Source: Henricia sp. BOLD:AAB3569 (taxonomy: Eukaryota; Echinodermata; Asteroidea; Spinulosida; Echinasteridae). From it: a stretch of 64,000 nucleotides of DNA. A program made the translations under genes and the position numbers. The notes under the pieces are model-generated. The model was not told the DNA's origin and did not search any database. It saw nothing but the letters and a program-made list of their open reading frames with translations. Below are positions 26,727 through 64,000 of the stretch, in pieces. Positions within the stretch are counted from its first letter, which is position 1. Each line of letters opens with the position of its first letter. The stretch lies in contig JBBELK010000530.1 in NCBI GenBank assembly GCA_037783545.1, forward strand, positions 1 to 64,000, read 5' to 3'.

Positions 26727-28355
26727 ACAGACTTTCGCCGGGAAATGGCAGAGAAATTTCAAAGTTTAGAAAAAACTGGGTTGAGGCTTCCTGACTGCTC
26801 TCACGCAAACCGTGGCTGTCTGTACACACCTCTTTGGGGTACTCCTGAGTTGTGCGCATGCTCAGTCATTCGGACTGTCGTTAACGCACCGCAGTTTGGC
26901 TCGGCAATTTGGTCAAAGTGTGGTCCAAACGTCGGCAAATTTGGAGGTCGAAAAATGTTCCGACGAACTTCAAATTTTGCATGCCCTAAACTCTCTATAT
27001 TGCGCACTTGTCATAAAAAATTGACAGACTTTCGCCGGGAAATGGCAGAGAAATTTCAAAGTTTAGAAAAAACTGCGTTGAGGCTTCCTGACTGCTCTCA
27101 CGCAAACCGTGGCTGTCTGTACACACCTCTTTGGGGTACTCCTGAGTTGTGCGCATGCTCAGTCATTCGGACTGTCGTAAACGCACCGCAGTTTGGCTCG
27201 GCAATTTGGTCAAAGTGTGGTCCAAACGTCGGCAAATTTGGAGGTCGAAAAATGTTCCGACGAACTTCAAATTTTGCATGCCCTAAACTCTCTATATTGC
27301 GCACTTGTCATAAAAAATTGACAGACTTTCGCCGGGAAATGGCAGAAAAATTTCAAAGTTTAGAAAAAAACTGGGTTGAGGCTTCCTGACTGCTCTCACG
27401 CAAACCGTGGCTGTCTGTACACACCTCTTTGGGGTACTCCTGAGTTGTGCGCATGCTCAGTCATTCGGACTGTCGTTAACGCACCGCAGTTTGGCTCGGC
27501 AATTTGGTCAAAGTGTGGTCCAAACGTCGGCAAATTTGGAGGTCGAAAAATGTTCCGACGAACTTCAAATTTTGCATGCCCTAAACTCTCTTTATTGCGC
27601 ACTTGTCATACAAAATTGACAGACTTTCGCCGGGAAATGGCAGAGAAATTTCAAAGTTTAGAAAAAACTGGGTTTAGGCTTCCTGACTGCTCTCACGCAA
27701 ACCGTGGCTGTCTGTACACACCTCTTTGGGGTACTCCTGAGTTGTGCGCATGCTCAGTCATTCGGACTGTCGTTAACGCACCGCAGTTTGGCTCGGCAAT
27801 TTGGTCAAAGTGTGGTCCAAACGTCGGCAAATTTGGAGGTCGAAAAATGTTCCGACGAACTTCAAATTTTGCATGCCCTAAACTCTCTTTATTGCGCACT
27901 TGTCATAAAAAATTGACAGACTTTCGCCGGGAAATGGCAGAGAAATTTCAAAGTTTAGAAAAAACTGGGTTTAGGCTTCCTGACTGCTCTCACGCAAACC
28001 GTGGCTGTCTGTACACACCTCTTTGGGGTACTCCTGAGTTGTGCGCATGCTCAGTCATTCGGACTGTCGTTAACGCACCGCAGTTTGGCTCGGCAATTTG
28101 GTCAAAGTGTGGTCCAAACGTCGGCAAATTTGGAGGTCGAAAAATGTTCCGACGAACTTCAAATTTTGCATGCCCTAAACTCTCTATATTGCGCACTTGT
28201 CATAAAAAATTGACAGACTTTCGCCGGGAAATGGCAGAGAAATTTCAAAGTTTAGAAAAAACTGGGTTGAGGCTTCCTGACTGCTCTCACGCAAACCGTG
28301 GCTGTCTGTACACACCTCTTTGGGGTACTCCTGAGTTGTGCGCATGCTCAGTCAT

Positions 28356-28638
28356 GGGCGGTCGGGTTGGCGTACGGGTTCTTTCCTCGACTTTCACCTC
28401 TGGCGTCCCGGGTTCGAATCCGGGGCGTGTATGTAGATTGGGTTTGCAGTCCCTACTTGACCGCGTGGGTTTTCCCCTGGGGCATTTCTCTGGGGGTTTT
28501 CCTCCCACTTCAAAAACTGCAACTCCTTCTTCGTCATCTCAAGTTGATAATATAGTATTGTTTAATCTAAAAAACCGTATAGTTGATGGCTTAAAGGGCC
28601 CTTAGTTGCCGAAGATGCCATAAAATATACAACAACAA
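28356..28638 (+). mobile_element. tRNA-derived SINE, copy 1 (283 bp)
   Basis: A 283-bp non-satellite insert in a monomer, flanked by the direct repeat CATGCTCAGTCAT (28343-28355 and 28639-28651), a target-site duplication of satellite sequence. It starts GGGCGGTCGGG, has an A-box-like TGGCGTACGGG and a perfect B box GGTTCGAATCC (28411-28421), a core with two TTTT/CCCC stretches ending in TTTTCCTCCCAC, the palindrome AAGGGCCCTT, and a 3' tail of AAC repeats. There is no reverse transcriptase or other ORF of its own. Private variant: GTATGTAGATTGG. The monomer downstream has CAAAATTTAG, shared with the one after copy 4. Confidence 0.88.
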
Positions 28639-29840
28639 CATGCTCAGTCATTCGGACTGTCGTTAACGCACCGCAGTTTGGCTCGGCAATTTGGTCAAAG
28701 TGTGGTCCAAACGTCGGCAAATTTGGAGGTCGAAAAATGTTCCGACGAACTTCAAATTTTGCATGCCCTAAACTCTCTATATTGCGCACTTGTCATAAAA
28801 AATTGACAGACTTTCGCCGGGAAATGGCAGAGAAATTTCAAAATTTAGAAAAAACTGGGTTGAGGCTTCCTGACTGCTCTCACGCAAACCGTGGCTGTCT
28901 GTACACACCTCTTTGGGGTACTCCTGAGTTGTGCGCATGCTCAGTCATTCGGACTGTCGTTAACGCACCGCAGTTTGGCTCGGCAATTTGGTCAAAGTGT
29001 GGTCCAAACGTCGGCAAATTTGGAGGTCGAAAAATGTTCCGACGAACTTCAAATTTTGCATGCCCTAAACTCTCTATATTGCGCACTTGTCATAAAAAAT
29101 TGACAGACTTTCGCCGGGAAATGGCAGAGAAATTTCAAAGTTTAGAAAAAAATGGGTTGAGGCTTCCTGACTGCTCTCACGCAAACCGTGGCTGTGTGTA
29201 CACACCTCTTTGGGGTACTCCTGAGTTGTGCGCATGCTCAGTCATTCGGACTGTCGTTAACGCACCGCAGTTTGGCTCGGCAATTTGGTCAAAGTGTGGT
29301 CCAAACGTCGGCAAATTTGGAGGTCGAAAAATGTTCCGACGAACTTCAAATTTTGCATGCCCTAAACTCTCTATATTGCGCACTTGTCATAACAAAATTG
29401 ACAGACTTTCGCCGGGAAATGGCAGAGAAATTTCAAAGTTTAGAAAAAACTGGGTTGAGGCTTCCTGACTGCTCTCACGCAAACCGTGGCTGTCTGTACA
29501 CCCCTCTTTGGGGTACTCCTGAGTTGTGCGCATGCTCAGTCATTCGGACTGTCGTTAACGCACCGCAGTTTGGCTCGGCAATTTGGTCAAAGTGTGGTCC
29601 AAACGTCGGCAAATTTTGAGGTCGAAAAATGTTCCGACGAACTTCAAATTTTGCATGCCCTAAACTCTCTATATTGCGCACTTGTCATACAAAATTGACA
29701 GACTTTCGCAGGGAAATGGCAGAGAAATTTCAAAGTTTAGAAAAAACTGGGTTGAGGCTTCCTGACTGCTCTCACGCAAACCGTGGCTGTCTGTACACAC
29801 CTCTTTGGGGTACTCCTGAGTTGTGCGCATGCTCAGTCAT

Positions 29841-30123
29841 GGGCGGTCGGGTTGGCGTACGGGTTCTTTCCTCGACTTTCACCTCTGGCGTCCCGGGTTC
29901 GAATCCGGGGCGTGTATGTGGATTGGGTTTGCAGTCCCTACTTGACCGCGTGGGTTTTCCCCTGGGGCATTTCTCTGGGGGTTTTCCTCCCACTTCAAAA
30001 ACTGCAACTCCTTCTTCGTCATCTCAAGTTGATAATATAGTATTGTTTAATCTAAAAAACCGTATAGTTGATGGCTTAAAGGGCCCTTAGTTGCCGAAGA
30101 TGCCATAAAATATACAACAACAA
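29841..30123 (+). mobile_element. tRNA-derived SINE, copy 2 (283 bp)
   Basis: Same 283-bp element, same insertion site and same 13-bp flanking repeat (29828-29840 and 30124-30136). It reads GTATGTGGATTGG, the majority state, and TTCGTCATC like copies 1 and 4. It lies 1485 bp after copy 1, with four monomers and a 1-bp A insertion between them. Confidence 0.88.
29852..29906 (+). promoter_or_regulatory. Internal Pol III type 2 promoter of the SINE (A box and B box)
   Basis: A-box-like TGGCGTACGGG lies at 29852-29862 and a consensus B box GGTTCGAATCC at 29896-29906, 33 bp apart, as in tRNA genes and tRNA-derived SINEs. All seven copies keep the B box: 28411-28421, 29896-29906, 39102-39112, 39992-40002, 42968-42978, 44749-44759 and 48015-48025. 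TTTT runs downstream within the element could terminate Pol III early, so present activity is uncertain. Confidence 0.75.
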
Positions 30124-30136
30124 CATGCTCAGTCAT

Positions 30137-31255
30137 TCGGACTGTCGTTAACGCACCGCAGTTTGGCTCGGCAATTTGGTCAAAGTGTGGTCCAAACGTC
30201 GGCAAATTTGGAGGTCGAAAAATGTTCCGACGAACTTCAAATTTTGCATGCCCTAAACTCTCTATATTGCGCACTTGTCATAAAAAATTGACAGACTTTC
30301 GCCGGGAAATGGCAGAGAAATTTCAAAGTTTAGAAAAAACTGGGTTGAGGCTTCCTGACTGCTCTCACGCAAACCGTGGCTGTCTGTACACACCTCTTTG
30401 GGGTACTCCTGAGTTGTGCGCATGCTCAGTCATTCGGACTGTCGTAAACGCACCGCAGTTTGGCTCGGCAATTTGGTCAAAGTGTGGTCCAAACGTCGGC
30501 AAATTTGGAGGTCGAAAAATGTTCCGACGAACTTCAAATTTTGCATGCCCTAAACTCTCTATATTGCGCACTTGTCATAAAAAATTGACAGACTTTCGCC
30601 GGGAAATGGCAGAAAAATTTCAAAGTTTAGAAAAAACTGGGTTGAGGCTTCCTGACTGCTCTCACGCAAACCGTGGCTGTCTGTACACACCTCTTTGGGG
30701 TACTCCTGAGTTGTGCGCATGCTCAGTCATTCGGACTGTCGTTAACGCACCGCAGTTTGGCTCGGCAATTTGGTCAAAGTGTGGTCCAAACGTCGGCAAA
30801 TTTGGAGGTCGAAAAATGTTCCGACGAACTTCAAATTTTGCATGCCCTAAACTCTCTTTATTGCGCACTTGTCATAAAAAATTGACAGACTTTCGCCGGG
30901 AAATGGCAGAGAAATTTCAAAGTTTAGAAAAAACTGGGTTGAGGCTTCCTGACTGCTCTCACGCAAACCGTGGCTGTCTGTACACACCTCTTTGGGGTAC
31001 TCCTGAGTTGTGCGCATGCTCAGTCACTCGGACTGTCGTTAACGCACCGCAGTTTGGCTCGGCAATTTGGTCAAAGTGTGGTCCAAACGTCGGCAAATTT
31101 GGAGGTCGAAAAATGTTCCGACGAACTTCAAATTTTGCATGCCCTAAACTCTCTATATTGCGCACTTGTCATAAAAAATTGACAGACTTTCGCCGGGAAA
31201 TGGCAGAGAAATTTCAAAGTTTAGAAAAAACTGGGTTGAGGCTTCCTGACTGCTC
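30137..31255 (+). repeat. Satellite monomers between SINE 2 and the 8/10-mer HOR
   Basis: About four ordinary monomers. One carries GTCGTAAACG (about 30443) with GCAGAAAAATTTC, one has CTCTCTTTATTG (about 30853), and one has CAGTCACTCGG (about 31021). The last two also occur in sequence within the following HOR blocks, so this is probably a truncated leading copy of that HOR. Confidence 0.8.
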
Positions 31256-34225
31256 TCACGCAAACCGTGGCTGTCTGTACACACCTCTTTGGGGTACTCC
31301 TGAGTTGTGCGCATGCTCAGTCATTCGGACTGTCGTTAACGCACCGCAGTTTGGCTCGGCAATTTGGTCAAAGTGTGGTCCAAACGTCGGCAAATTTGGA
31401 GGTCGAAAAATGTTCCGACGAACTTCAAATTTTGCATGCCCTAAACTCTCTATATTGCGCACTTGTCATAAAAAATTGACAGACTTTCCCCGGGAAATGG
31501 CAGATAAATTTCAAAGTTTAGAAAAAACTGGGTTGAGGCTTCCTGACTGCTCTCGCGCAAACCGTGGCTGTCTGTACACACCTCTTTGGGGTACTCCTGA
31601 GTTGTGCGCATGCTCAGTCATTCGGACTGTCGTTAACGCACCGCAGTTTGGCTCGGCAATTTGGTCAAAGTGTGGTCCAAACGTCGGCAAATTTGGAGGT
31701 CGAAAAATGTTCCGACGAACTTCAAATTTTGCATGCCCTAAACTCTCTATATTGCGCACTTGTCATAAAAAATTGACAGACTTTCGCCGGGAAATGGCAG
31801 AGAAATTTCAAAGTTTAGAAAAAACTGGGTTGAGGCTTCCTGACTGCTCTCACGCAAACCGTGGCTGTCTGTACACACCTCTTTGGGGTACTCCTGAGTT
31901 GTGCGCATGCTCAGTCACTCGGACTGTCGTTAACGCACCGCAGTTTGGCTCGGCAATTTGGTCAAAGTGTGGTCCAAACGTCGGCAAATTTGGAGGTCGA
32001 AAAATGTTCCGACGAACTTCAAATTTTGCATGCCCTAAACTCTCTATATTGCGCACTTGTCATAAAAAATTGACAGACTTTCGCCGGGAAATGGCAGAGA
32101 AATTTCAAAGTTTAGAAAAAACTGGGTTGAGGCTTCCTGACTGCTCTCACGCAAACCGTGGCTGTCTGTACACACCTCTTTGGGGTACTCCTGAGTTGTG
32201 CGCATGCTCAGTCATTCGGACTGTCGTTAACGCACCGCAGTTTGGCTCGGCAATTTGGTCAAAGTGTGGTCCAAACGTCGGCAAATTTGGAGGTCGAAAA
32301 ATGTTCCGACGAACTTCAAATTTTGCATGCCCTAAACTCTCTATATTGCGCACTTGTCATAACAAATTGACAGACTTTCGCCGGGAAATGGCAGAGAAAT
32401 TTCAAAGTTTAGAAAAAACTGGGTTGAGGCTTCCTGACTGCTCTCACGCAAACCGTGGCTGTCTGTACACACCTCTTTGGGGTACTCCTGAGTTGTGCGC
32501 ATGCTCAGTCATTCGGACTGTCGTTAACGCACCGCAGTTTGGCTCGGCAATTTGGTCAAAGTGTGGTCCAAACGTCGGCAAATTTGGAGGTCGAAAAATG
32601 TTCCGACGAACTTCAAATTTTGCATGCCCTAAACTCTCTATATTGCGCACTTGTCATAAAAAATTGACAGACTTTCGCCGGGAAATGGCAGAGAAATTTC
32701 AAAGTTTAGAAAAAACTGGGTTGAGGCTTCCTGACTGCTCTCACGCAAACCGTGGCTGTCTGTACACACCTCTTTGGGGTACTCCTGAGTTGTGCGCATG
32801 CTCAGTCACTCGGACTGTCGTTAACGCAACGCAGTTTGGCTCGGCAATTTGGTCAAAGTGTGGTCCAAACGTCGGCAAATTTGGAGGTCGAAAAATGTTC
32901 CGACGAACTTCAAATTTTGCATGCCCTAAACTCTCTATATTGCGCACTTGTCAAAAAAAATTGACAGACTTTCGCCGGGAAATGGCAGAGAAATTTCAAA
33001 GTTTAGAAAAAACTGGGTTGAGGCTTCCTGACTGCTCTCACGCAAACCGTGGCTGTCTGTACACACCTCTTTGGGGTACTCCTGAGTTGTGCGCATGCTC
33101 AGTCATTCGGACTGTCGTTAACGCACCGCAGTTTGGCTCGGCAATTTGGTCAAAGTGTGGTCCAAACGTCGGCAAATTTGGAGGTCGAAAAATGTTCCGA
33201 CGAACTTCAAATTTTGCATGCCCTAAACTCTCTATATTGCGCACTTGTCATAACAAATTGACAGACTTTCGCCGGGAAATGGCAGAGAAATGTCAAAGTT
33301 TAGAAAAAACTGGGTTGAGGCTTCCTGACTGCTCTCACGCAAACCGTGGCTGTCTGTACACACCTCTTTGGGGTACTCCTGAGTTGTGCGCATGCTCAGT
33401 CATTCGAACTGTCGTTAACGCACCGCAGTTTGGCTCGGCAATTTGGTCAAAGTGTGGTCCAAACGTGGGCAAATTTGGAGGTCGAAAAATGTTCCGACGA
33501 ACTTCAAATTTTGCATGCCCTAAACTCTCTATATTGCGCACTTGTCATAATAAATTGACAGACTTTCGCCGGGAAATGGCAGAGAAATTTCAAAGTTTAG
33601 AAAAAACTGGGTTGAGGCTTCCTGACTGCTCACACGCAAACCGTGGCTGTCTGTACACACCTCTTTGGGGTACTCAAGAGTTGTGCGCATGCTCAGTCAT
33701 TCGGACTGTCGTTAACGCACCGCAGTTTGGCTCGGCAATTTGGTCAAAGTGTGGTCCAAACGTCGGCAAATTTGGAGGTCGAAAAATGTTCCGACGAACT
33801 TCAAATTTTGCATGCCCTAAACTCTCTTTATTGCGCACTTGTCATAAAAAATTGACAGACTTTCGCCGGGAAATGGCAGAGAAATTTCAAAGTTTAGAAA
33901 AAACTGGGTTGAGGCTTCCTGACTGCTCTCACGCAAACCGTGGCTGTCTGTACACACCTCTTTGGGGTACTCCTGAGTTGTGCGCATGCTCAGTCACTCG
34001 GACTGTCGTTAACGCACCGCAGTTTGGCTCGGCAATTTGGTCAAAGTGTGGTCCAAACGTCGGCAAATTTGGAGGTCGAAAAATGTTCCGACGAACTTCA
34101 AATTTTGCATGCCCTAAACTCTCTATATTGCGCACTTGTCATAAAAAATTGACAGACTTTCGCCGGGAAATGGCAGAGAAATTTCAAAGTTTAGAAAAAA
34201 CTGGGTTGAGGCTTCCTGACTGCTC
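31256..34225 (+). repeat. HOR block, ten-monomer version (2970 bp)
   Basis: Ordered markers: TTTCCCCGGGAAATGG with GCAGATAAATTTC and CTCTCGCGCAAACC (about 31486-31562), CAGTCACTCGG (about 31912), CATAACAAATTG, a plain monomer, CAGTCACTCGG with ACGCAACGCAG and GTCAAAAAAAATTG (about 32810-32961), CATAACAAATTG, CATTCGAACTG with ACGTGGGCAAA (about 33400-33470), and CTCAAGAGTTG (about 33673). The length is exactly ten monomers. Confidence 0.85.
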
Positions 34226-36601
34226 TCACGCAAACCGTGGCTGTCTGTACACACCTCTTTGGGGTACTCCTGAGTTGTGCGCATGCTCAGTCATTCGGAC
34301 TGTCGTTAACGCACCGCAGTTTGGCTCGGCAATTTGGTCAAAGTGTGGTCCAAACGTCGGCAAATTTGGAGGTCGAAAAATGTTCCGACGAACTTCAAAT
34401 TTTGCATGCCCTAAACTCTCTATATTGCGCACTTGTCATAAAAAATTGACAGACTTTCCCCGGGAAATGGCAGATAAATTTCAAAGTTTAGAAAAAACTG
34501 GGTTGAGGCTTCCTGACTGCTCTCGCGCAAACCGTGGCTGTCTGTACACACCTCTTTGGGGTACTCCTGAGTTGTGCGCATGCTCAGTCATTCGGACTGT
34601 CGTTAACGCACCGCAGTTTGGCTCGGCAATTTGGTCAAAGTGTGGTCCAAACGTCGGCAAATTTGGAGGTCGAAAAATGTTCCGACGAACTTCAAATTTT
34701 GCATGCCCTAAACTCTCTATATTGCGCACTTGTCATAAAAAATTGACAGACTTTCGCCGGGAAATGGCAGAGAAATTTCAAAGTTTAGAAAAAACTGGGT
34801 TGAGGCTTCCTGACTGCTCTCACGCAAACCGTGGCTGTCTGTACACACCTCTTTGGGGTACTCCTGAGTTGTGCGCATGCTCAGTCACTCGGACTGTCGT
34901 TAACGCACCGCAGTTTGGCTCGGCAATTTGGTCAAAGTGTGGTCCAAACGTCGGCAAATTTGGAGGTCGAAAAATGTTCCGACGAACTTCAAATTTTGCA
35001 TGCCCTAAACTCTCTATATTGCGCACTTGTCATAAAAAATTGACAGACTTTCGCCGGGAAATGGCAGAGAAATTTCAAAGTTTAGAAAAAACTGGGTTGA
35101 GGCTTCCTGACTGCTCTCACGCAAACCGTGGCTGTCTGTACACACCTCTTTGGGGTACTCCTGAGTTGTGCGCATGCTCAGTCATTCGGACTGTCGTTAA
35201 CGCACCGCAGTTTGGCTCGGCAATTTGGTCAAAGTGTGGTCCAAACGTCGGCAAATTTGGAGGTCGAAAAATGTTCCGACGAACTTCAAATTTTGCATGC
35301 CCTAAACTCTCTATATTGCGCACTTGTCATAACAAATTGACAGACTTTCGCCGGGAAATGGCAGAGAAATTTCAAAGTTTAGAAAAAACTGGGTTGAGGC
35401 TTCCTGACTGCTCTCACGCAAACCGTGGCTGTCTGTACACACCTCTTTGGGGTACTCCTGAGTTGTGCGCATGCTCAGTCATTCGGACTGTCGTTAACGC
35501 ACCGCAGTTTGGCTCGGCAATTTGGTCAAAGTGTGGTCCAAACGTCGGCAAATTTGGAGGTCGAAAAATGTTCCGACGAACTTCAAATTTTGCATGCCCT
35601 AAACTCTCTATATTGCGCACTTGTCATAACAAATTGACAGACTTTCGCCGGGAAATGGCAGAGAAATTTCAAAGTTTAGAAAAAACTGGGTTGAGGCTTC
35701 CTGACTGCTCTCACGCAAACCGTGGCTGTCTGTACACACCTCTTTGGGGTACTCCTGAGTTGTGCGCATGCTCAGTCATTCGAACTGTCGTTAACGCACC
35801 GCAGTTTGGCTCGGCAATTTGGTCAAAGTGTGGTCCAAACGTGGGCAAATTTGGAGGTCGAAAAATGTTCCGACGAACTTCAAATTTTGCATGCCCTAAA
35901 CTCTCTATATTGCGCACTTGTCATAATAAATTGACAGACTTTCGCCGGGAAATGGCAGAGAAATTTCAAAGTTTAGAAAAAACTGGGTTGAGGCTTCCTG
36001 ACTGCTCACACGCAAACCGTGGCTGTCTGTACACACCTCTTTGGGGTACTCAAGAGTTGTGCGCATGCTCAGTCATTCGGACTGTCGTTAACGCACCGCA
36101 GTTTGGCTCGGCAATTTGGTCAAAGTGTGGTCCAAACGTCGGCAAATTTGGAGGTCGAAAAATGTTCCGACGAACTTCAAATTTTGCATGCCCTAAACTC
36201 TCTTTATTGCGCACTTGTCATAAAAAATTGACAGACTTTCGCCGGGAAATGGCAGAGAAATTTCAAAGTTTAGAAAAAACTGGGTTGAGGCTTCCTGACT
36301 GCTCTCACGCAAACCGTGGCTGTCTGTACACACCTCTTTGGGGTACTCCTGAGTTGTGCGCATGCTCAGTCACTCGGACTGTCGTTAACGCACCGCAGTT
36401 TGGCTCGGCAATTTGGTCAAAGTGTGGTCCAAACGTCGGCAAATTTGGAGGTCGAAAAATGTTCCGACGAACTTCAAATTTTGCATGCCCTAAACTCTCT
36501 ATATTGCGCACTTGTCATAAAAAATTGACAGACTTTCGCCGGGAAATGGCAGAGAAATTTCAAAGTTTAGAAAAAACTGGGTTGAGGCTTCCTGACTGCT
36601 C
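34226..36601 (+). repeat. HOR block, eight-monomer version (2376 bp)
   Basis: Repeats the preceding block in the same order (TTTCCCCGGG at about 34455, CATTCGAACTG at about 35780, CTCAAGAGTTG at about 36052). It lacks two consecutive monomers, the plain one and the one with ACGCAACGCAG and GTCAAAAAAAATTG. Loss of exactly two monomers fits unequal exchange within the HOR. Confidence 0.85.
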
Positions 36602-39046
36602 TCACGCAAACCGTGGCTGTCTGTACACACCTCTTTGGGGTACTCCTGAGTTGTGCGCATGCTCAGTCATTCGGACTGTCGTTAACGCACCGCAGTTTGG
36701 CTCGGCAATTTGGTCAAAGTGTGGTCCAAACGTCGGCAAATTTGGAGGTCGAAAAATGTTCCGACGAACTTCAAATTTTGCATGCCCTAAACTCTCTATA
36801 TTGCGCACTTGTCATAAAAAATTGACAGACTTTCCCCGGGAAATGGCAGATAAATTTCAAAGTTTAGAAAAAACTGGGTTGAGGCTTCCTGACTGCTCTC
36901 GCGCAAACCGTGGCTGTCTGTACACACCTCTTTGGGGTACTCCTGAGTTGTGCGCATGCTCAGTCATTCGGACTGTCGTTAACGCACCGCAGTTTGGCTC
37001 GGCAATTTGGTCAAAGTGTGGTCCAAACGTCGGCAAATTTGGAGGTCGAAAAATGTTCCGACGAACTTCAAATTTTGCATGCCCTAAACTCTCTATATTG
37101 CGCACTTGTCATAAAAAATTGACAGACTTTCGCCGGGAAATGGCAGAGAAATTTCAAAGTTTAGAAAAAACTGGGTTGAGGCTTCCTGACTGCTCTCACG
37201 CAAACCGTGGCTGTCTGTACACACCTCTTTGGGGTACTCCTGAGTTGTGCGCATGCTCAGTCACTCGGACTGTCGTTAACGCACCGCAGTTTGGCTCGGC
37301 AATTTGGTCAAAGTGTGGTCCAAACGTCGGCAAATTTGGAGGTCGAAAAATGTTCCGACGAACTTCAAATTTTGCATGCCCTAAACTCTCTATATTGCGC
37401 ACTTGTCATAAAAAATTGACAGACTTTCGCCGGGAAATGGCAGAGAAATTTCAAAGTTTAGAAAAAACTGGGTTGAGGCTTCCTGACTGCTCTCACGCAA
37501 ACCGTGGCTGTCTGTACACACCTCTTTGGGGTACTCCTGAGTTGTGCGCATGCTCAGTCATTCGGACTGTCGTTAACGCACCGCAGTTTGGCTCGGCAAT
37601 TTGGTCAAAGTGTGGTCCAAACGTCGGCAAATTTGGAGGTCGAAAAATGTTCCGACGAACTTCAAATTTTGCATGCCCTAAACTCTCTATATTGCGCACT
37701 TGTCATAACAAATTGACAGACTTTCGCCGGGAAATGGCAGAGAAATTTCAAAGTTTAGAAAAAACTGGGTTGAGGCTTCCTGACTGCTCTCACGCAAACC
37801 GTGGCTGTCTGTACACACCTCTTTGGGGTACTCCTGAGTTGTGCGCATGCTCAGTCATTCGGACTGTCGTTAACGCACCGCAGTTTGGCTCGGCAATTTG
37901 GTCAAAGTGTGGTCCAAACGTCGGCAAATTTGGAGGTCGAAAAATGTTCCGACGAACTTCAAATTTTGCATGCCCTAAACTCTCTATATTGCGCACTTGT
38001 CATAAAAAATTGACAGACTTTCGCCGGGAAATGGCAGAGAAATTTCAAAGTTTAGAAAAAACTGGGTTGAGGCTTCCTGACTGCTCTCACGCAAACCGTG
38101 GCTGTCTGTACACACCTCTTTGGGGTACTCCTGAGTTGTGCGCATGCTCAGTCACTCGGACTGTCGTTAACGCAACGCAGTTTGGCTCGGCAATTTGGTC
38201 AAAGTGTGGTCCAAACGTCGGCAAATTTGGAGGTCGAAAAATGTTCCGACGAACTTCAAATTTTGCATGCCCTAAACTCTCTATATTGCGCACTTGTCAA
38301 AAAAAATTGACAGACTTTCGCCGGGAAATGGCAGAGAAATTTCAAAGTTTAGAAAAAACTGGGTTGAGGCTTCCTGACTGCTCTCACGCAAACCGTGGCT
38401 GTCTGTACACACCTCTTTGGGGTACTCCTGAGTTGTGCGCATGCTCAGTCATTCGGACTGTCGTTAACGCACCGCAGTTTGGCTCGGCAATTTGGTCAAA
38501 GTGTGGTCCAAACGTCGGCAAATTTGGAGGTCGAAAAATGTTCCGACGAACTTCAAATTTTGCATGCCCTAAACTCTCTATATTGCGCACTTGTCATAAC
38601 AAATTGACAGACTTTCGCCGGGAAATGGCAGAGAAATTTCAAAGTTTAGAAAAAACTGGGTTGAGGCTTCCTGACTGCTCTCACGCAAACCGTGGCTGTC
38701 TGTACACACCTCTTTGGGGTACTCCTGAGTTGTGCGCATGCTCAGTCATTCGAACTGTCGTTAACGCACCGCAGTTTGGCTCGGCAATTTGGTCAAAGTG
38801 TGGTCCAAACGTGGGCAAATTTGGAGGTCGAAAAATGTTCCGACGAACTTCAAATTTTGCATGCCCTAAACTCTCTATATTGCGCACTTGTCATAATAAA
38901 TTGACAGACTTTCGCCGGGAAATGGCAGAGAAATTTCAAAGTTTAGAAAAAACTGGGTTGAGGCTTCCTGACTGCTCTCACGCAAACCGTGGCTGTCTGT
39001 ACACACCTCTTTGGGGTACTCCTGAGTTGTGCGCATGCTCAGTCAT
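36602..39046 (+). repeat. HOR block, third copy ending at SINE 3
   Basis: Same marker order, starting with TTTCCCCGGG at about 36831. It retains the ACGCAACGCAG/GTCAAAAAAAATTG monomer (about 38171-38307, exactly 5346 bp after its counterpart in the first block) and the CATTCGAACTG monomer (about 38748). Where the other blocks have the CTCAAGAGTTG monomer, this one has a SINE-bearing monomer, so the SINE boundary coincides with an HOR exchange point. Confidence 0.83.
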
Positions 39047-39329
39047 GGGCGGTCGGGTTGGCGTACGGGTTCTTTCCTCGACTTTCACCTCTGGCGTCCC
39101 GGGTTCGAATCCGGGGCGTGTATGTGGATTGGGTTTGCAGTCCCTACTTGACCGCGTGGGTTTTCCCTTGGGGCATTTCTCTGGGGGTTTTCCTCCCACT
39201 TCAAAAACTGCAACTCCTTCTTCTTCATCTCAAGTTGATAATATAGTATTGTTTAATCTAAAAAACCGTATAGTTGATGGCTTAAAGGGCCCTTAGTTGC
39301 CGAAGATGCCATAAAATATACAACAACAA
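39047..39329 (+). mobile_element. tRNA-derived SINE, copy 3 (283 bp)
   Basis: Flanked by CATGCTCAGTCAT at 39034-39046 and 39330-39342. Carries TTCTTCATC (shared with copies 5-7) but keeps TATAGTTGATGG (shared with 1, 2 and 4). It has the private variant TTTTCCCTTGGGG. These mixed states place it between the two SINE subgroups. Confidence 0.88.
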
Positions 39330-39342
39330 CATGCTCAGTCAT

Positions 39343-39923
39343 TCGGACTGTCGTTAACGCACCGCAGTTTGGCTCGGCAATTTGGTCAAAGTGTGGTCCA
39401 AACGTCGGCAAATTTGGAGGTCGAAAAATGTTCCGACGAACTTCAAATTTTGCATGCCCTAAACTCTCTATATTGCGCACTTGTCATAAAAAATTGACAG
39501 ACTTTCGCCGGGAAATGGCAGAGAAATTTCAAAGTTTAGAAAAAACTGGGTTGAGGCTTCCTGACTGCTCTCACGCAAACCGTGGCTGTCTGTACACACC
39601 TCTTTGGGGTACTCCTGAGTTGTGCGCATGCTCAGTCATTCGGACTGTCGTTAACGCACCGCAGTTTGGCTCGGCAATTTGGTCAAAGTGTGGTCCAAAC
39701 GTCGGCAAATTTGGAGGTCGAAAAATGTTCCGACGAACTTCAAATTTTGCATGCCCTAAACTCTCTATATTGCGCACTTTTCATAAACAATTGACAGACT
39801 TTCGCCGGGAAATGGCAGAGAAATTTCAAAGTTTAGAAAAAACTGGGTTGAGGCTTCCTGACTGCTCTCACGCAAACCGTGGCTGTCTGTACACACCTCT
39901 TTGGGGTACTCCTGAGTTGTGCG
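39343..39923 (+). repeat. Satellite monomers between SINE 3 and SINE 4
   Basis: Two monomer lengths of satellite; the SINE starts are 890 bp apart, that is 296 plus 2 x 297. The second carries the private variant CACTTTTCATAAACAATTG (about 39776). Confidence 0.85.
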
Positions 39924-39936
39924 CATGCTCAGTCAT

Positions 39937-40219
39937 GGGCGGTCGGGTTGGCGTACGGGTTCTTTCCTCGAATTTCACCTCTGGCGTCCCGGGTTCGAAT
40001 CCGGGGCGTGTATGTGGATTGGGTTTGCAGTCCCTACTTGACCGCGTGGGTTTTCCCCTGGGGCATTTCTCTGGGGGTTTTCCTCCCACTTCAAAAACTG
40101 CAACTCCTTCTTCGTCATCTCAAGTTGATAATATAGTATTGTTTAATCTAAAAAACCGTATAGTTGATGGCTTGAAGGGCCCTTAGTTGCCGAAGATGCC
40201 ATAAAATATACAACAACAA
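39937..40219 (+). mobile_element. tRNA-derived SINE, copy 4 (283 bp)
   Basis: Flanked by CATGCTCAGTCAT at 39924-39936 and 40220-40232. Carries TTCGTCATC like copies 1 and 2, plus private CTCGAATTTCACC and GGCTTGAAGGG. The following monomer has CAAAATTTAG (about 40430), otherwise seen only after copy 1, so copies 1 and 4 were probably multiplied together with their flanking satellite. Confidence 0.88.
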
Positions 40220-40232
40220 CATGCTCAGTCAT

Positions 40233-42899
40233 TCGGACTGTCGTTAACGCACCGCAGTTTGGCTCGGCAATTTGGTCAAAGTGTGGTCCAAACGTCGGCA
40301 AATTTGGAGGTCGAAAAATGTTCCGACGAACTTCAAATTTTGCATGCCCTAAACTCTCTATATTGCGCACTTGTCATAAAAAATTGACAGACTTTCGCCG
40401 GGAAATGGCAGAGAAATTTCAAAATTTAGAAAAAACTGGGTTGAGGCTTCCTGACTGCTCTCACGCAAACCGTGGCTGTCTGTACACACCTCTTTGGGGT
40501 ACTCCTGAGTTGTGCGCATGCTCAGTCATTCGGACTGTCGTTAACGCACCGCAGTTTGGCTCGGCAATTTGGTCAAAGTGTGGTCCAAACGTCGGCAAAT
40601 TTGGAGGTCGAAAAATGTTCCGACGAACTTCAAATTTTGCATGCCCTAAACTCTCTATATTGCGCACTTGTCATAAAAAATTGACAGACTTTCGCCGGGA
40701 AATGGCAGAGAAATTTCAAAGTTTAGAAAAAACTGGGTTGAGGCTTCCTGACTGCTCTCACGCAAACCGTGGCTGTCTGTACACACCTCTTTGGGGTACT
40801 CCTGAGTTGTGCGCATGCTCAGTCATTCGGACTGTCGTTAACGCACCGCAGTTTGGCTCGGCAATTTGGTCAAAGTGTGGTCCAAACGTCGGCAAATTTG
40901 GAGGTCGAAAAATGTTCCGACGAACTTCAAATTTTGCATGCCCTAAACTCTCTATATTGCGCACTTGTCATAAAAAATTGACAGACTTTCGCCGGGAAAT
41001 GGCAGAGAAATTTCAAAGTTTAGAAAAAACTGGGTTGAGGCTTCCTGACTGCTCTCACGCAAACCGTGGCTGTCTGTACACACCTCTTTGGGGTACTCCT
41101 GAGTTGTGCGCATGCTCAGTCATTCGGACTGTCGTTAACGCACCGCAGTTTGGCTCGGCAATTTGGTCAAAGTGTGGTCCAAACGTCGGCAAATTTGGAG
41201 GTCGAAAAATGTTCCGACGAACTTCAAATTTTGCATGCCCTAAACTCTCTATATTGCGCACTTGTCATAAAAAATTGACAGACTTTCCCCGGGAAATGGC
41301 AGATAAATTTCAAAGTTTAGAAAAAACTGGGTTGAGGCTTCCTGACTGCTCTCGCGCAAACCGTGGCTGTCTGTACACACCTCTTTGGGGTACTCCTGAG
41401 TTGTGCGCATGCTCAGTCATTCGGACTGTCGTTAACGCACCGCAGTTTGGCTCGGCAATTTGGTCAAAGTGTGGTCCAAACGTCGGCAAATTTGGAGGTC
41501 GAAAAATGTTCCGACGAACTTCAAATTTTGCATGCCCTAAACTCTCTATATTGCGCACTTGTCATAAAAAATTGACAGACTTTCGCCGGGAAATGGCAGA
41601 GAAATTTCAAAGTTTAGAAAAAACTGGGTTGAGGCTTCCTGACTGCTCTCACGCAAACCGTGGCTGTCTGTACACACCTCTTTGGGGTACTCCTGAGTTG
41701 TGCGCATGCTCAGTCATTCGGACTGTCGTTAACGCACCGCAGTTTGGCTCGGCAATTTGGTCAAAGTGTGGTCCAAACGTCGGCAAATTTGGAGGTCGAA
41801 AAATGTTCCGACGAACTTCAAATTTTGCATGCCCTAAACTCTCTATATTGCGCACTTGTCATAAAAAATTGACAGACTTTCGCCGGGAAATGGCAGAGAA
41901 ATTTCAAAGTTTAGAAAAAACTGGGTTGAGGCTTCCTGACTGCTCTCACGCAAACCGTGGCTGTCTGTACACACCTCTTTGGGGTACTCCTGAGTTGTGC
42001 GCATGCTCAGTCATTAGTCATTCGGACTGTCGTTAACGCACCGCAGTTTGGCTCGGCAATTTGGTCAAAGTGTGGTCCAAACGTCGGCAAATTTGGAGGT
42101 CGAAAAATGTTCCGACGAACTTTAAATTTTGCATGCCCTAAACTCTCTATATTGCGCACTTGTCATAAAAAATTGACAGACTTTCCCCGGGAAATGGCAG
42201 ATAAATTTCAAAGTTTAGAAAAAACTGGGTTGAGGCTTCCTGACTGCTCTCACGCAAACCGTGGCTGTCTGTACACACCTCTTTGGGGTACTCCTGAGTT
42301 GTGCGCATGCTCAGTCATTCGGACTGTCGTTAACGCACCGCAGTTTGGCTCGGCAATTTGGTCAAAGTGTGGTCCAAACGTCGGCAAATTTGGAGGTCGA
42401 AAAATGTTCCGACGAACTTCAAATTTTGCATGCCCTAAACTCTCTATATTGCGCACTTGTCATAAAAAATTGACAGACTTTCGCCGGGAAATGGCAGAGA
42501 AATTTCAAAGTTTAGAAAAAACTGGGTTGAGGCTTCCTGACTGCTCTCACGCAAACCGTGGCTGTCTGTACACACCTCTTTGGGGTACTCCTGAGTTGTG
42601 CGCATGCTCAGTCATTCGGACTGTCGTTAACGCACCGCAGTTTGGCTCGGCAATTTGGTCAAAGTGTGGTCCAAACGTGGGCAAATTTGGAGGTCGAAAA
42701 ATGTTCCGACGAACTTCAAATTGTGCATGCCCTAAACTCTCTATATTGCGCACTTGTCATAAAAAATTGACAGACTTTCGCCGGGAAATGGCAGAGAAAT
42801 TTCAAAGTTTAGAAAAAACTGGGTTGAGGCTTCCTGACTGCTCTCACGCAAACCGTGGCTGTCTGTACACACCTCTTTGGGATACTCCTGAGTTGTGCG
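40233..42899 (+). repeat. Nine satellite monomers between SINE 4 and SINE 5
   Basis: Contains the TTTCCCCGGG/GCAGATAAATTTC markers of the 31-39 kb HOR at about 41284 (with CTCTCGCGC) and again at about 42182 (with the normal CTCTCACGC). One monomer has a 7-bp tandem duplication at 42009-42022 and another has ACGTGGGCAAA (about 42676). The SINE-to-SINE distance of 2976 bp equals 296 plus 9 x 297 plus that 7 bp. Confidence 0.85.
42009..42022 (+). repeat. 7-bp tandem duplication AGTCATT at the SINE target position
   Basis: The sequence reads CAGTCATTAGTCATTCGG, where all other polished monomers have one AGTCATT. The duplicated heptamer overlaps the last bases of the 13-bp sequence that is duplicated around every SINE. 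Simple replication slippage is the plainest explanation. Confidence 0.9.
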
Positions 42900-42912
42900 C
42901 ATGCTCAGTCAT

Positions 42913-43195
42913 GGGCGGTCGGGTTGGCGTACGGGTTCTTTCCTCGACTTTCACCTCTGGCGTCCCGGGTTCGAATCCGGGGCGTGTATGTGGATTGGGT
43001 TTGCAGTCCCTACTTGACCGCGTGGGTTTTCCCCTGGGGCATTTCTCTGGGGGTTTTCCTCCCACTTCAAAAACTGCAACTCCTTCTTCTTCATCTCAAG
43101 TTGATAATATAGTATTGTTTAATCTAAAAAACCGTATAGATGATGGCTTAAAGGGCCCTTAGTTGCCGAAGATGCCATAAAATATACAACAACAA
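42913..43195 (+). mobile_element. tRNA-derived SINE, copy 5 (283 bp)
   Basis: Flanked by CATGCTCAGTCAT at 42900-42912 and 43196-43208. Carries TTCTTCATC and TATAGATGATGG, the pair that defines the subgroup of copies 5, 6 and 7. The monomer just upstream has the private GGGATACTCC. Confidence 0.88.
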
Positions 43196-43208
43196 CATGC
43201 TCAGTCAT

Positions 43209-44680
43209 TCGGACTGTCGTTAACGCACCGCAGTTTGGCTCGGCAATTTGGTCAAAGTGTGGTCCAAACGTCGGCAAATTTGGAGGTCGAAAAATGTTCC
43301 GACGAACTTCAAATTTTGCATGCCCTAAACTCTCTATATTGCGCACTTGTAATAAAAAATTGACAGACTTTCGCCGGGAAATGGCAGAGAAATTTCAAAG
43401 TTTAGAAAAAACTGGGTTGAGGCTTCCTGACTGCTCTCACGCAAACCGTGGCTGTCTGTACACACCTCTGTGGGGTACTCCTGAGTTGTGCGCATGCTCA
43501 GTCATTCGGACTGTCGTTAACGCACCGCAGTTTGGCTCGGCAATTTGGTCAAAGTGTGGTCCAAACGTCGGCAAATTTGGAGGTCGAAAAATGTTCCGAC
43601 GAACTTCAAATTTTGCATGCCCTAAACTCTCTATATTGCGCACTTGTCATAAAAAATTGACAGACTTTCGCCGGGAAATGGCAGAGAAATTTCAAAGTTT
43701 AGAAAAAACTGGGTTGAGGCTTCCTGACTGCTCTCACGCAAACCGTGGCTGTCTGTACACACCTCTTTGGGGTACTCCTGAGTTGTGCGCATGCTCAGTC
43801 ATTCGGACTGTCGTTAACGCACCGCAGTTTGGCTCGGCAATTTGGTCAAAGTGTGGTCCAAACGTCGGCAAATTTGGAGGTCGAAAAATGTTCCGACGAA
43901 CTTCAAATTTTGCATGCCCTAAACTCTCTATATTGCGCACTTGTCATAACAAATTGACAGACTTTCCCCGGGAAATGGCAGATAAATTTCAAAGTTTAGA
44001 AAAAACTGGGTTGAGGCTTCCTGACTGCTCTCACACAAACCGTGGCTGTCTGTACACACCTCTTTGGGGTACTCCTGAGTTGTGCGCATGCTCAGTCATT
44101 CGGACTGTCGTTAACGCACCGCAGTTTGGCTCGGCAATTTGGTCAAAGTGTGGTCCAAACGTCGGCAAATTTGGAGGTCGAAAAATGTTCCGCCGAACTT
44201 CAAATTTTGCATGCCCTAAACTCTCTATATTGCGCACTTGTCATAAAAAATTGACAGACTTTCGCCGGGAAATGGCAGAGAAATTTCAAAGTTTAGAAAC
44301 AACTGGGTTGAGGCTTCCTGACTGCTCTCACGCAAACCGTGGCTGTCTGTACACACCTCTTTGGGGTACTCCTGAGTTGTGCGCATGCTCAGTCATTCGG
44401 ACTGTCGTTAACGCACCGCAGTTTGGCTCGGCAATTTGGTCAAAGTGTGGTCCAAACGTGGGCAAATTTGGAGGTCGAAAAATGTTCCGACGAACTTCAA
44501 ATTTTGCATGCCCTAAACTCTCTATATTGCGCACTTGTCATAAAAAAATGACAGACTTTCGCCGGGAAATGGCAGAGAAATTTCAAAGTTTAGAAAAAAC
44601 TGGGTTGAGGCTTCCTGACTGCTCTCACGCAAACCGTGGCTGTCTGTACACACCTCTTTGGGGTACTCCTGAGTTGTGCG
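43209..44680 (+). repeat. Satellite monomers between SINE 5 and SINE 6
   Basis: Five monomer lengths (SINE spacing 1781 = 296 + 5 x 297). The segment at about 43660-44330, with CATAACAAATTG, TTTCCCCGGG, CTCTCACACAAACC, TTCCGCCGAAC and TTTAGAAACAACTGG in order, recurs at about 46332-47000 with an offset of 2672 bp. Confidence 0.85.
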
Positions 44681-44693
44681 CATGCTCAGTCAT

Positions 44694-44976
44694 GGGCGGT
44701 CGGGTTGGCGTACGGGTTCTTTCCTCGACTTTCACCTCTGGCGTCCCGGGTTCGAATCCGGGGCGTGTATGTGGATTGGGTTTGCAGTCCCTACTTGACC
44801 GCGTGGGTTTTCCCCTGGGGCATTTCTCTGGGGGTTTTCCTCCCACTTCAAAAACTGCAACTCCTTCTTCTTCATCTCAAGTTGATAATATAGTATTGTT
44901 TAATCTAAAAAACCGTATAGATGATGGCTTAAAGGGCCCTTAGTTGCCGAAGATGCCATAAAATATACAACAACAA
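44694..44976 (+). mobile_element. tRNA-derived SINE, copy 6 (283 bp)
   Basis: Flanked by CATGCTCAGTCAT at 44681-44693 and 44977-44989. Same subgroup as copies 5 and 7 (TTCTTCATC, TATAGATGATGG). I noticed no private substitution, so it is close to the subgroup consensus. Confidence 0.88.
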
Positions 44977-44989
44977 CATGCTCAGTCAT

Positions 44990-47946
44990 TCGGACTGTCG
45001 TTAACGCACCGCAGTTTGGCTCGGCAATTTGGTCAAAGTGTGGTCCAAACGTCGGCAAATTTGGAGGTCGAAAAATGTTCCGACGAACTTCAAATTTTGC
45101 ATGCCCTAAACTCTCTATATTGCGCACTTGTCATAAAAAATTGACAGACTTTCGCCGGGAAATGGCAGAGAAATTTCAAAGTTTAGAAAAAACTGGGTTG
45201 AGGCTTCCTGACTGCTCTCACGCAAACCGTGGCTGTCTGTACACACCTCTTTGGGGTACTCCTGAGTTGTGCGCATGCTCAGTCATTCGGACTGTCGTTA
45301 ACGCACCGCAGTTTGGCTCGGCAATTTGGTCAAAGTGTGGTCCAAACGTCGGCAAATTTGGAGGTCGAAAAATGTTCCGACGAACTTCAAATTTTGCATG
45401 CCCTAAACTCTCTATATTGCGCACTTGTCATAAAAAATTGACAGACTTTCGCCGGGAAATGGCAGAGAAATTTCAAAGTTTAGAAAAAACTGGGTTGAGG
45501 CTTCCTGACTGCTCTCACGCAAACCGTGGCTGTCTGTACACACCTCTTTGGGGTACTCCTGAGTTGTGCGCATGCTCAGTCATTCGGACTGTCGTTAACG
45601 CACCGCAGTTTGGCTCGGCAATTTGGTCAAAGTGTGGTCCAAACGTCGGCCAATTTGGAGGTCGAAAAATGTTCCGACGAACTTCAAATTTTGCATGCCC
45701 TAAACTCTCTATATTGCGCACTTGTCATAAAAAATTGACAGACTTTCGCCGGGAAATGGCAGAGAAATTTCAAAGTTTAGAAAAAACTGGGTTGAGGCTT
45801 CCTGACTGCTCTCACGCAAACCGTGGCTGTCTGTACACACCTCTTTGGGGTACTCCTGAGTTGTGCGCATGCTCAGTAATTCGGACTGTCGTTAACGCAC
45901 CGCAGTTTGGCTCGGCAATTTGGTCAAAGTGTGGTCCAAACGTCGGCAAATTTGGAGGTCGAAAAATGTTCCGACGAACTTCAAATTTTGCATGCCCTAA
46001 ACTCTCTATATTGCGCACTTGTCATAAAAAATTGACAGACTTTCGCCGGGAAATGGCAGAGAAATTTTAAAGTTTAGAAAAAACTGGGTTGAGGCTTCCT
46101 GACTGCTCTCACGCAAACCGTGGCTGTCTGTACACACCTCTTTGGGGTACTCCTGAGTTGTGCGCATGCTCAGTCATTCGGACTGTCGTTAACGCACCGC
46201 AGTTTGGCTCGGCAATTTGGTCAAAGTGTGGTCCAAACGTGGGTAAATTTGGAGGTCGAAAAATGTTCCGACGAACTTCAAATTTTGCATGCCCTAAACT
46301 CTCTATATTGCGCACTTGTCATAAAAAATTGACAGACTTTCGCCGGGAAATGGCAGAGAAATTTCAAAGTTTAGAAAAAACTGGGTTGAGGCTTCCTGAC
46401 TGCTCTCACGCAAACCGTGGCTGTCTGTACACACCTCTTTGGGGTACTCCTGAGTTGTGCGCATGCTCAGTCATTCGGACTGTCGTTAACGCACCGCAGT
46501 TTGGCTCGGCAATTTGGTCAAAGTGTGGTCCAAACGTCGGCAAATTTGGAGGTCGAAAAATGTTCCGACGAACTTCAAATTTTGCATGCCCTAAACTCTC
46601 TATATTGCGCACTTGTCATAACAAATTGACAGACTTTCCCCGGGAAATGGCAGATAAATTTCAAAGTTTAGAAAAAACTGGGTTGAGGCTTCCTGACTGC
46701 TCTCACACAAACCGTGGCTGTCTGTACACACCTCTTTGGGGTACTCCTGAGTTGTGCGCATGCTCAGTCATTCGGACTGTCGTTAACGCACCGCAGTTTG
46801 GCTCGGCAATTTGGTCAAAGTGTGGTCCAAACGTCGGCAAATTTGGAGGTCGAAAAATGTTCCGCCGAACTTCAAATTTTGCATGCCCTAAACTCTCTAT
46901 ATTGCGCACTTGTCATAAAAAATTGACAGACTTTCGCCGGGAAATGGCAGAGAAATTTCAAAGTTTAGAAACAACTGGGTTGAGGCTTCCTGACTGCTCT
47001 CACGCAAACCGTGGCTGTCTGTACACACCTCTTTGGGGTACTCCTGAGTTGTGCGCATGCTCAGTCATTCGGACTGTCGTTAACGCACCGCAGTTTGGCT
47101 CGGCAATTTGGTCAAAGTGTGGTCCAAACGTCGGCCAATTTGGAGGTCGAAAAATGTTCCGACGAACTTCAAATTTTGCATGCCCTAAACTCTCTATATT
47201 GCGCACTTGTCATAAAAAATTGACAGACTTTCGCCGGGAAATGGCAGAGAAATTTCAAAGTTTAGAAAAAACTGGGTTGAGGCTTCCTGACTGCTCTCAC
47301 GCAAACCGTGGCTGTCTGTACACACCTCTTTGGGGTACTCCTGAGTTGTGCGCATGCTCAGTAATTCGGACTGTCGTTAACGCACCGCAGTTTGGCTCGG
47401 CAATTTGGTCAAAGTGTGGTCCAAACGTCGGCAAATTTGGAGGTCGAAAAATGTTCCGACGAACTTCAAATTTTGCATGCCCTAAACTCTCTATATTGCG
47501 CACTTGTCATAAAAAATTGACAGACTTTCGCCGGGAAATGGCAGAGAAATTTTAAAGTTTAGAAAAAACTGGGTTGAGGCTTCCTGACTGCTCTCACGCA
47601 AACCGTGGCTGTCTGTACACACCTCTTTGGGGTACTCCTGAGTTGTGCGCATGCTCAGTCATTCGGACTGTCGTTAACGCACCGCAGTTTGGCTCGGCAA
47701 TTTGGTCAAAGTGTGGTCCAAACGTGGGTAAATTTGGAGGTCGAAAAATGTTCCGACGAACTTCAAATTTTGCATGCCCTAAACTCTCTATATTGCGCAC
47801 TTGTCATAAAAAATTGACAGACTTTCGCCGGGAAATGGCAGAGAAATTTCAAAGTTTAGAAAAAACTGGGTTGAGGCTTCCTGACTGCTCTCACGCAAAC
47901 CGTGGCTGTCTGTACACACCTCTTTGGGGTACTCCTGAGTTGTGCG
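44990..47946 (+). repeat. Ten satellite monomers between SINE 6 and SINE 7, with a 1485-bp HOR
   Basis: SINE spacing is 3266 bp = 296 + 10 x 297. A run of three marker monomers recurs at 1485 bp: GTCGGCCAATTTGG (about 45646 and 47131), CTCAGTAATTCGG with GAAATTTTAAAG (about 45876/46063 and 47361/47548), and ACGTGGGTAAATTT (about 46238 and 47723). The GAAATTTTAAAG variant puts an in-frame stop in the satellite's open frame and was nevertheless amplified. Confidence 0.85.
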
Positions 47947-47959
47947 CATGCTCAGTCAT

Positions 47960-48242
47960 GGGCGGTCGGGTTGGCGTACGGGTTCTTTCCTCGACTTTCA
48001 CCTCTGGCGTCCCGGGTTCGAATCCGGGGCGTGTATGTGGATTGGGTTTGCAGTCCCTACTTGACCGCGTGGGTTTTCCCCTGGGGCATTTCTCTGGGGG
48101 TTTTCCTCCCACTTCAAAAACTGCAACTCCTTCTTCTTCATCTCAAGTTGATAATATAGTATTGTTTAATCTAAAAAACCGTATAGATGATGGCTTAAAG
48201 GGCCCTTAGTTGCCGAAGATGCCATAAAATATACAACAACAA
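47960..48242 (+). mobile_element. tRNA-derived SINE, copy 7 (283 bp)
   Basis: Flanked by CATGCTCAGTCAT at 47947-47959 and 48243-48255. Subgroup of copies 5-7. The satellite right after it has the private GTTAATGCACC in place of GTTAACGCACC (about 48266). It is the last SINE copy in the window. Confidence 0.88.
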
Positions 48243-48255
48243 CATGCTCAGTCAT

Positions 48256-63400: not shown

Positions 63401-64000
63401 CGTGGCTGTCTGTCCACACCTCTTGGGGTACTCCTGAGTTGTGCGCATGCTCAGTCATTCGACTGTCCTTTAACGCACCGCAGTTTGGCTCGGGCATCTT
63501 TGATCAAGTAGTGGTCCAAACGTCGGCAAATTTGGAGGTCGAAAAATGTTCCGACGAACTCAAATTTTGCATGCTCTAAACTCTCTATTTTGCGCACTTG
63601 TCATAAAAAAATTGACAGACTTTCGCGGGCGGGAAATGGCAGGAAATTTCAAGTTTAAAAAAACCTGGGTTGAGGCTTCCTGACTGCTCTCACGCAAACC
63701 GTGGGCTGTCTGTACACACCTCTTTGGGGGTACTCCTGAGGTTGGCTCATGCTCAGTCCACGGACTGTCGTTACGCACCGCAGTTTTGGCTCGGCAATTT
63801 GGTAAAGTGTGGTCCAAACGTCGGCAGATTTGAAGGTCGGAAAAATGTTCCGAGAACTTCAAATTTTGATGCCCCCTAAACTCTCTATATGCGCACTTGT
63901 CATAAAAAATTGACAGACTTTCGCGGGAAATGGCAGAGAAATTTCAAAGTTTAGAAAAAAACTGGGTATGAGGCCTTCCTGACTGCTCTCACGCAAACCG
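57457..64000 (+). repeat. Error-rich satellite: same monomer with dense private indels
   Basis: About 22 monomers of the same family, at a mean spacing near 299 bp. From 57457 (an extra C in GAGTTGCTGCGC) onward nearly every monomer carries several single-base insertions or deletions and some substitutions, at positions not shared with other monomers. Examples are GAGTCTAGTGCGCAATGCC (about 57751), GTACCACCTC (about 59234), a ten-G run (61618-61627) and CGCGGGCGGG (about 63625). Upstream of 57457 variants are shared across HORs and mostly substitutions. The abrupt change fits raw or unpolished long-read sequence at a contig end. Short frames here are fragments with no meaning. Confidence 0.88.

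Follow-up and report, generated by a model that had tools for sequence, protein, structure and literature searches.

Seven SINE copies in a 297-bp satellite array of Henricia sp.: a probable single insertion multiplied as part of satellite DNA

Results

The window (the whole stretch of DNA analysed, 64,000 nucleotides, positions 1 to 64000) covers the first 64 kb of the 118,686-bp contig C530 and is filled throughout by a 297-bp tandem array (TRF period 297, 215.4 copies). The assembly was searched genome-wide (740.7 Mb, 2,104 contigs), and the empty-site pattern gave 235,917 matches at ≤3 mismatches, which at 297 bp each corresponds to a satellite share of about 9.5% of the assembly. With this number of matches and a continuous head-to-tail array of 64 kb, the repeat was classified as satellite DNA. 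The mitochondrial COX1 of the assembly has in-frame TGA, and AAA stands in the place of an N of the conserved start motif; together with the arrangement and strand of the tRNA genes ahead of COX1, these features agree with an echinoderm and, by mitochondrial code and gene order, suggest a sea star. The 13-mer CATGCTCAGTCAT occurs 210 times in the window at ≤2 mismatches, against a shuffle mean of 1.12, and each SINE-free monomer has one, the empty target site (for example, 28046 to 28058 on the plus strand, in the monomer preceding SINE copy 1). Neighboring monomers differ by a mean of 3.01 of 297 positions. Near-identical runs of at least five monomers number 22 in the window; eight lie wholly inside the first 166 units, more than when these units were shuffled 100 times (mean 0.78, maximum 6), so block duplication does occur in this array. 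The monomers at 24244, 25710, and 26581 are 276 to 277 bp long, about 21 bp short, and from 57463 to 64000 the monomers diverge and the anchor spacing is irregular (gaps of 590 to 608 bp, units of 294 to 305 bp).

Seven SINEs of 283 bp each, all on the plus strand, start at 28356, 29841, 39047, 39937, 42913, 44694, and 47960. CATGCTCAGTCAT stands immediately 5' and 3' of the SINE in 7/7 copies, the first target-site duplication beginning at 28343 and the last one ending at 48255. With their two 13-bp duplications, the copies occupy 28343 to 28651 (copy 1, SINE 28356 to 28638), 29828 to 30136 (copy 2, SINE 29841 to 30123, one difference from copy 1), 39034 to 39342 (copy 3, SINE 39047 to 39329), 39924 to 40232 (copy 4, SINE 39937 to 40219), 42900 to 43208 (copy 5, SINE 42913 to 43195, identical to copies 6 and 7), 44681 to 44989 (copy 6, SINE 44694 to 44976), and 47947 to 48255 (copy 7, SINE 47960 to 48242). 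The original prediction of seven 283-bp SINEs at the same monomer base with the same 13-bp duplication is thus confirmed. Pairwise, the SINEs differ at 0 to 4 of 283 positions (6 variable columns, 5 haplotypes), and their mean divergence of 2.29 of 283 (21 pairs) is not above the 3.01 of 297 for neighboring monomers, which leaves the description of the insertion as ancient unsupported. Consecutive SINEs are irregularly spaced at 5, 31, 3, 10, 6, and 11 units. The SINE plus one duplication amounts to 296 bp against a 297-bp monomer; each insertion therefore adds almost exactly one monomer, and the period is kept. The variant CAAAATTTAG is found exactly twice in the window, at 28839 (28839 to 28848, plus strand, downstream of copy 1) and 40420, each 483 bp past the start of a SINE (copies 1 and 4).

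In 7/7 copies, an internal pol III A box (TGGCGTACGG, base 13) and B box (GGTTCGAATCC, base 56) were assigned by their motif strings. A (CAA)n 3' tail and the 13-bp duplications are likewise present in 7/7 copies, a set of features that places the element among tRNA-derived SINEs (SINE2 type); it is the two boxes that point to the tRNA origin. ARAGORN (bacterial code) predicted 0 tRNA genes in the window, and an Rfam search of positions 27000 to 49000 (E up to 1) gave no hit for the SINE head. The family is dispersed, with 4,579 genome matches to a 38-bp body pattern (≤3 mismatches, satellite copies included). Solo SINEs with different target duplications, which had been proposed as a check, were found: they are 99 to 100% identical to the query copy L071 and have their own target duplications, so the family has been active recently. 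A duplication of at least 10 bp was seen at 25 of 29 full-length solo loci and was not clear at L069, L090, L095, and L116. Similarity to the monomer over 40 bp (E 1e-3) was found in none of the 18 solo SINE loci of the L071/L091-L124 set; the monomer is not made of SINE sequence, and a SINE-derived satellite was rejected. At L041 (1985 to 2018) and near the end of L180, a SINE head of 31 to 34 bp is joined to another monomer position and followed by other sequence; this is perhaps a second SINE family with a common head.

The majority sequence of the seven SINEs differs from L071 in 10 aligned columns. Lineage W was defined by the motif AGTATTGTTTAATCTAAAAAACCGTATAG, which has 48 genome matches at ≤2 mismatches (21 plus, 27 minus) on 9 contigs, 7 of these matches lying in the window; as a local count, "seven-fold" amplification therefore stands, but genome-wide it understates the lineage. 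In cross-checked lists, the 3' junction is CATGC in 48/48 matches, and the 5' junction is exact in 47/48; at the exception, C247:116908 (L023), the 5' flank is another monomer part. No W body was found elsewhere than at this junction among the 48 genome matches (≤2 mismatches), and exact 5' junctions lacking a W body were seen at C1265:17171 and C1267:42866 among the matches listed. GGCTTAAAGGGCCCTT is present in 76/78 W rows versus 0/116 other full-length rows (repeat fetches included), and copy 4 has one further change within it; no conclusion was drawn from counts of TATAGTT, a string present twice in the SINE. A 93-row SINE tree unites the 13 W rows with L023 in a clade of support 97/95 (bootstrap not settled). 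The copies in C530 do not form a clade of their own: copies 3 and 5 to 7 group with copies from C1596, C247, C569, and C1486, and this intermixing shows that the spread was not confined to the present array. Another W copy lies within 10 kb for 47 of the 48, where 0.014 neighbors per copy would be expected if the copies were scattered over monomers.

Beyond lineage W, the CATGC site has a 5' junction pattern with 134 genome matches and a 3' junction pattern with 359, junction details being taken from 100 listed matches in each case. The non-W SINEs fetched at this base have the 5' junctions CATGCTCAGTCA before G or A, CATGCTCAGTCAT before AA or GA, CATGCTCAGTCATTC, and CATGCTCAGTCATTCG; a 5'-truncated non-W copy (L125, C385) is found there as well. 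Their bodies are scattered among solo copies in the 93-row tree, where the label of these SINEs needs at least five changes on well-supported branches, three being the number that a single gain with two losses can give. Several SINEs therefore inserted at this satellite base. The 13th junction base was discarded as a sign of separate insertions, as C1267 L051 (G) and L149 (T) have identical bodies and share an odd tail.

From the 40 main matches to L071, 34 loci were fetched in addition to the query locus, and the 5 omitted are further copies in sampled clusters. Of these 35 loci, 18 are solo and 17 are in the satellite, the latter spread over 10 distinct sites other than CATGC, with both orientations represented. 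The satellite thus holds 10/28 insertion events, more than its 9.5% share (p 1.5e-4), in a sample biased toward the best-matching copies. The solo copies, and the insertions in either orientation at ten further positions of the satellite, rule out a site-specific retroelement; for this SINE family, CATGC can be no more than a favored target. The AACTCTC site has 84 3' junctions on 31 contigs (68/84 with a neighbor within 10 kb), and the CACCTC site has 28 on 10 contigs (22/28 with a neighbor within 10 kb); each has more than one 5' junction. A single control site (n = 1), chosen without C[A/T] context, had 0 SINE junctions. Other insertions of the family seem to have been multiplied by satellite copying, too. 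Seven 3' junctions of the AACTCTC site lie outside the window at C530:95677-108977, and GTCGG microhomology is present at the 5' joint in two of three SINE copies read in L151 (C530). A hybrid SINE, L162 (C1506:32790-33290), combines a CATGC-type 5' flank (CATGCTCAGTCATTCG) with an AACTCTC-type 3' flank, and 1,187 bp from it lies a second SINE that shares this 5' junction and has CATGC as its 3' flank. This is the only clear hybrid among the loci read. Its simplest explanation is an exchange between two SINEs located at different points of the satellite, the alternative being an insertion that deleted target sequence.

A 4,768-bp block with SINE copies 1 and 2 (26856 to 31623, plus strand) recurs three times in contig C247; along some 4,767 bp, the three matches have 10, 12, and 19 mismatches and 2 to 3 gap openings, against a background of 29 to 52 mismatches and 10 to 18 gap openings in 20 monomer-phased comparisons inside the window array. 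The SINE pairs of C569 and C1206 have a spacing close to that of copies 1 and 2, yet differ from the window block by 44 to 45 mismatches, within background. Further near-identical W loci appeared in closest-pair tables over eight monomer-length blocks. Inside the window, 0/22 near-identical runs contain a SINE; the spread there is thus not visible as a recent block duplication, and short conversion tracts would fit too. The flanks of the seven copies were compared at 11 offsets. Offset +1 alone is low (1.33 vs 3.06, a value that 2.1% of random sets reach or undercut, uncorrected), and -3 exceeds the chance level (5.80, with 99.7% of random sets at or below it). Among 33 W loci, flank distance tracks SINE distance at +1 only (r 0.20, 78/2000 permutations, uncorrected), and the +1 monomer is the most alike (mean distance 1.62; next -1, 2.69). 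As monomers differ by only about 1%, flank tests have low power. The congruence of SINEs and flanks, a check put forward with the original prediction, is weak, +1 alone agreeing and -3 in the window running opposite. That flanking variants travel with the SINEs holds for CAAAATTTAG after copies 1 and 4 and for the C247 blocks, but coupling is otherwise weak.

Discussion

The seven SINEs are best explained by one insertion that was then propagated as part of satellite DNA, a reading to which we give a probability of roughly 0.93. This was the main event of the original prediction, and it is borne out by private changes in the SINE body, 48 common 3' junctions, and the 97/95 clade. The argument originally offered, that repeated insertion at the same base is very unlikely, fails genome-wide: other SINEs stand at this base, with duplications of 12 to 16 bp, and ten further satellite sites were used, so the shared base alone would mislead in this genome. 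With some 236,000 monomers, a common insertion base is no proof of a single insertion; private mutations in the insert are. Recurrent insertion at this base does occur elsewhere in the genome, with 12-, 13-, 15-, and 16-bp duplications, different bodies, and the tree changes given above, and it lends some substance to the proposal that the seven copies are independent arrivals at a retrotransposition hot spot. These seven, however, have identical junctions and fall in one supported clade, their motif always comes with the CATGC 3' junction in its 48 occurrences, and seven jumps would need a W-type source that left no copies elsewhere. Independent insertion was ruled out for them on the motif, the junctions, and the clade, and the hot-spot account is extremely improbable. 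SINEs with other target duplications in the satellite, which were to count against a single insertion, do exist, but their bodies are non-W, and the claim stands.

By the single-insertion reading, a tRNA-derived SINE would have retroposed once into a satellite base, yielding the CATGCTCAGTCAT duplication, probably through target-primed reverse transcription by a putative LINE partner that left the (CAA)n tail. The founder of lineage W would have carried or acquired the private body changes, and W would then have spread solely within satellite DNA by duplication of multi-monomer blocks, older exchange or conversion having parted it from its original neighbors. The history of W is read as older scattering plus recent block duplication, with unequal exchange presumably outweighing conversion. 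That balance could be reversed if W spread mainly by short-tract gene conversion between monomers. There is little coupling of the SINE to its flanks past the first monomer, flank similarity across the 33 W loci is highest at +1, and the near-identical runs of the window are free of SINEs, all of which would suit conversion. Such tracts would have to copy 296 bp absent from the recipient monomer, though, and blocks with two SINEs were duplicated between contigs, while the hybrid junction in C1506 is easiest to obtain by exchange; on balance, we regard predominant conversion as unlikely, though a serious alternative. Much less probable is an amplification less extensive than it seems, with haplotigs and false duplication in the assembly inflating the copy number. 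Arrays of this kind are hard to assemble, C569 and C1206 align over 4,657 bases without a mismatch and with 5 gap openings, and the three mitochondrial COX1 copies that C955 carries with a period of 16,221 bp are an assembly concatemer. Given the possible haplotype or overlap redundancy of C569 and C1206, the 48 W copies are an assembly count. False duplication would not easily produce five SINE haplotypes at six columns within the window or the irregular spacing of the copies, and we consider inflation of this extent very unlikely.

A broader reading would make the satellite a standing amplifier of SINEs, one that takes insertions above its genome share and repeatedly at preferred bases and then multiplies those that stay in register (about one 297-bp period), the SINE serving both as an additional monomer and as another stretch of homology through which out-of-phase arrays could exchange. 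Spacings below 12 kb deviate by at most 15 bp from a multiple of 297 in 32/39 cases for W and 13/16 for CACCTC, but in only 23/46 for AACTCTC. For the 5'-truncated copy L125 in C385, the matches listed include another CATGC 3' junction 500 bp downstream, and this pair suggests that keeping register (296 vs 297 bp) is not required for amplification. We think the amplifier reading rather improbable.

In a satellite that otherwise offers no landmarks, every SINE insertion is an unambiguous marker. Several are available here (the 48-match lineage, the sites with 84 and 28 junctions, and hybrids), and through them one can measure how large the satellite exchanges between arrays are and which route they take, a usually difficult task. 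Among the titles and abstract openings listed from an open-access library, we saw neither the satellite nor its SINE described, and no precedent was drawn from the part of a report on human centromeres that was available (PMC11062924). The comparisons below likewise refer to the available parts of the reports cited. The rye satellites pSc200 and pSc250 resemble the present case in that mobile elements in contact with the satellite expand with it through recombination (PMC4857426); there, the elements are in array-flanking regions, whereas here the SINE is inside the monomer and is followed through its shared junction and the private changes of its body. In squamate reptiles, SINE-derived satellites likewise couple SINEs to tandem amplification (PMC10702118), but their tandem unit is built from SINE portions, while the present monomer is not SINE-derived and SINEs are its rare guests. 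PcH-sat of Patella caerulea is also a marine invertebrate satellite linked to a tRNA-derived SINE; unlike here, its Nin-SINE fragment belongs to the monomer (PMC11121367). The U2-targeting Utopia non-LTR retrotransposons likewise enter a single base of a repetitive sequence again and again (PMC4640811), but they are target-specific, whereas the present SINE is also found at unique loci and at ten other satellite sites. Set beside these systems, the process is known in kind and is unusually well marked here, and the value of the case is in having several marked insertions in one satellite.
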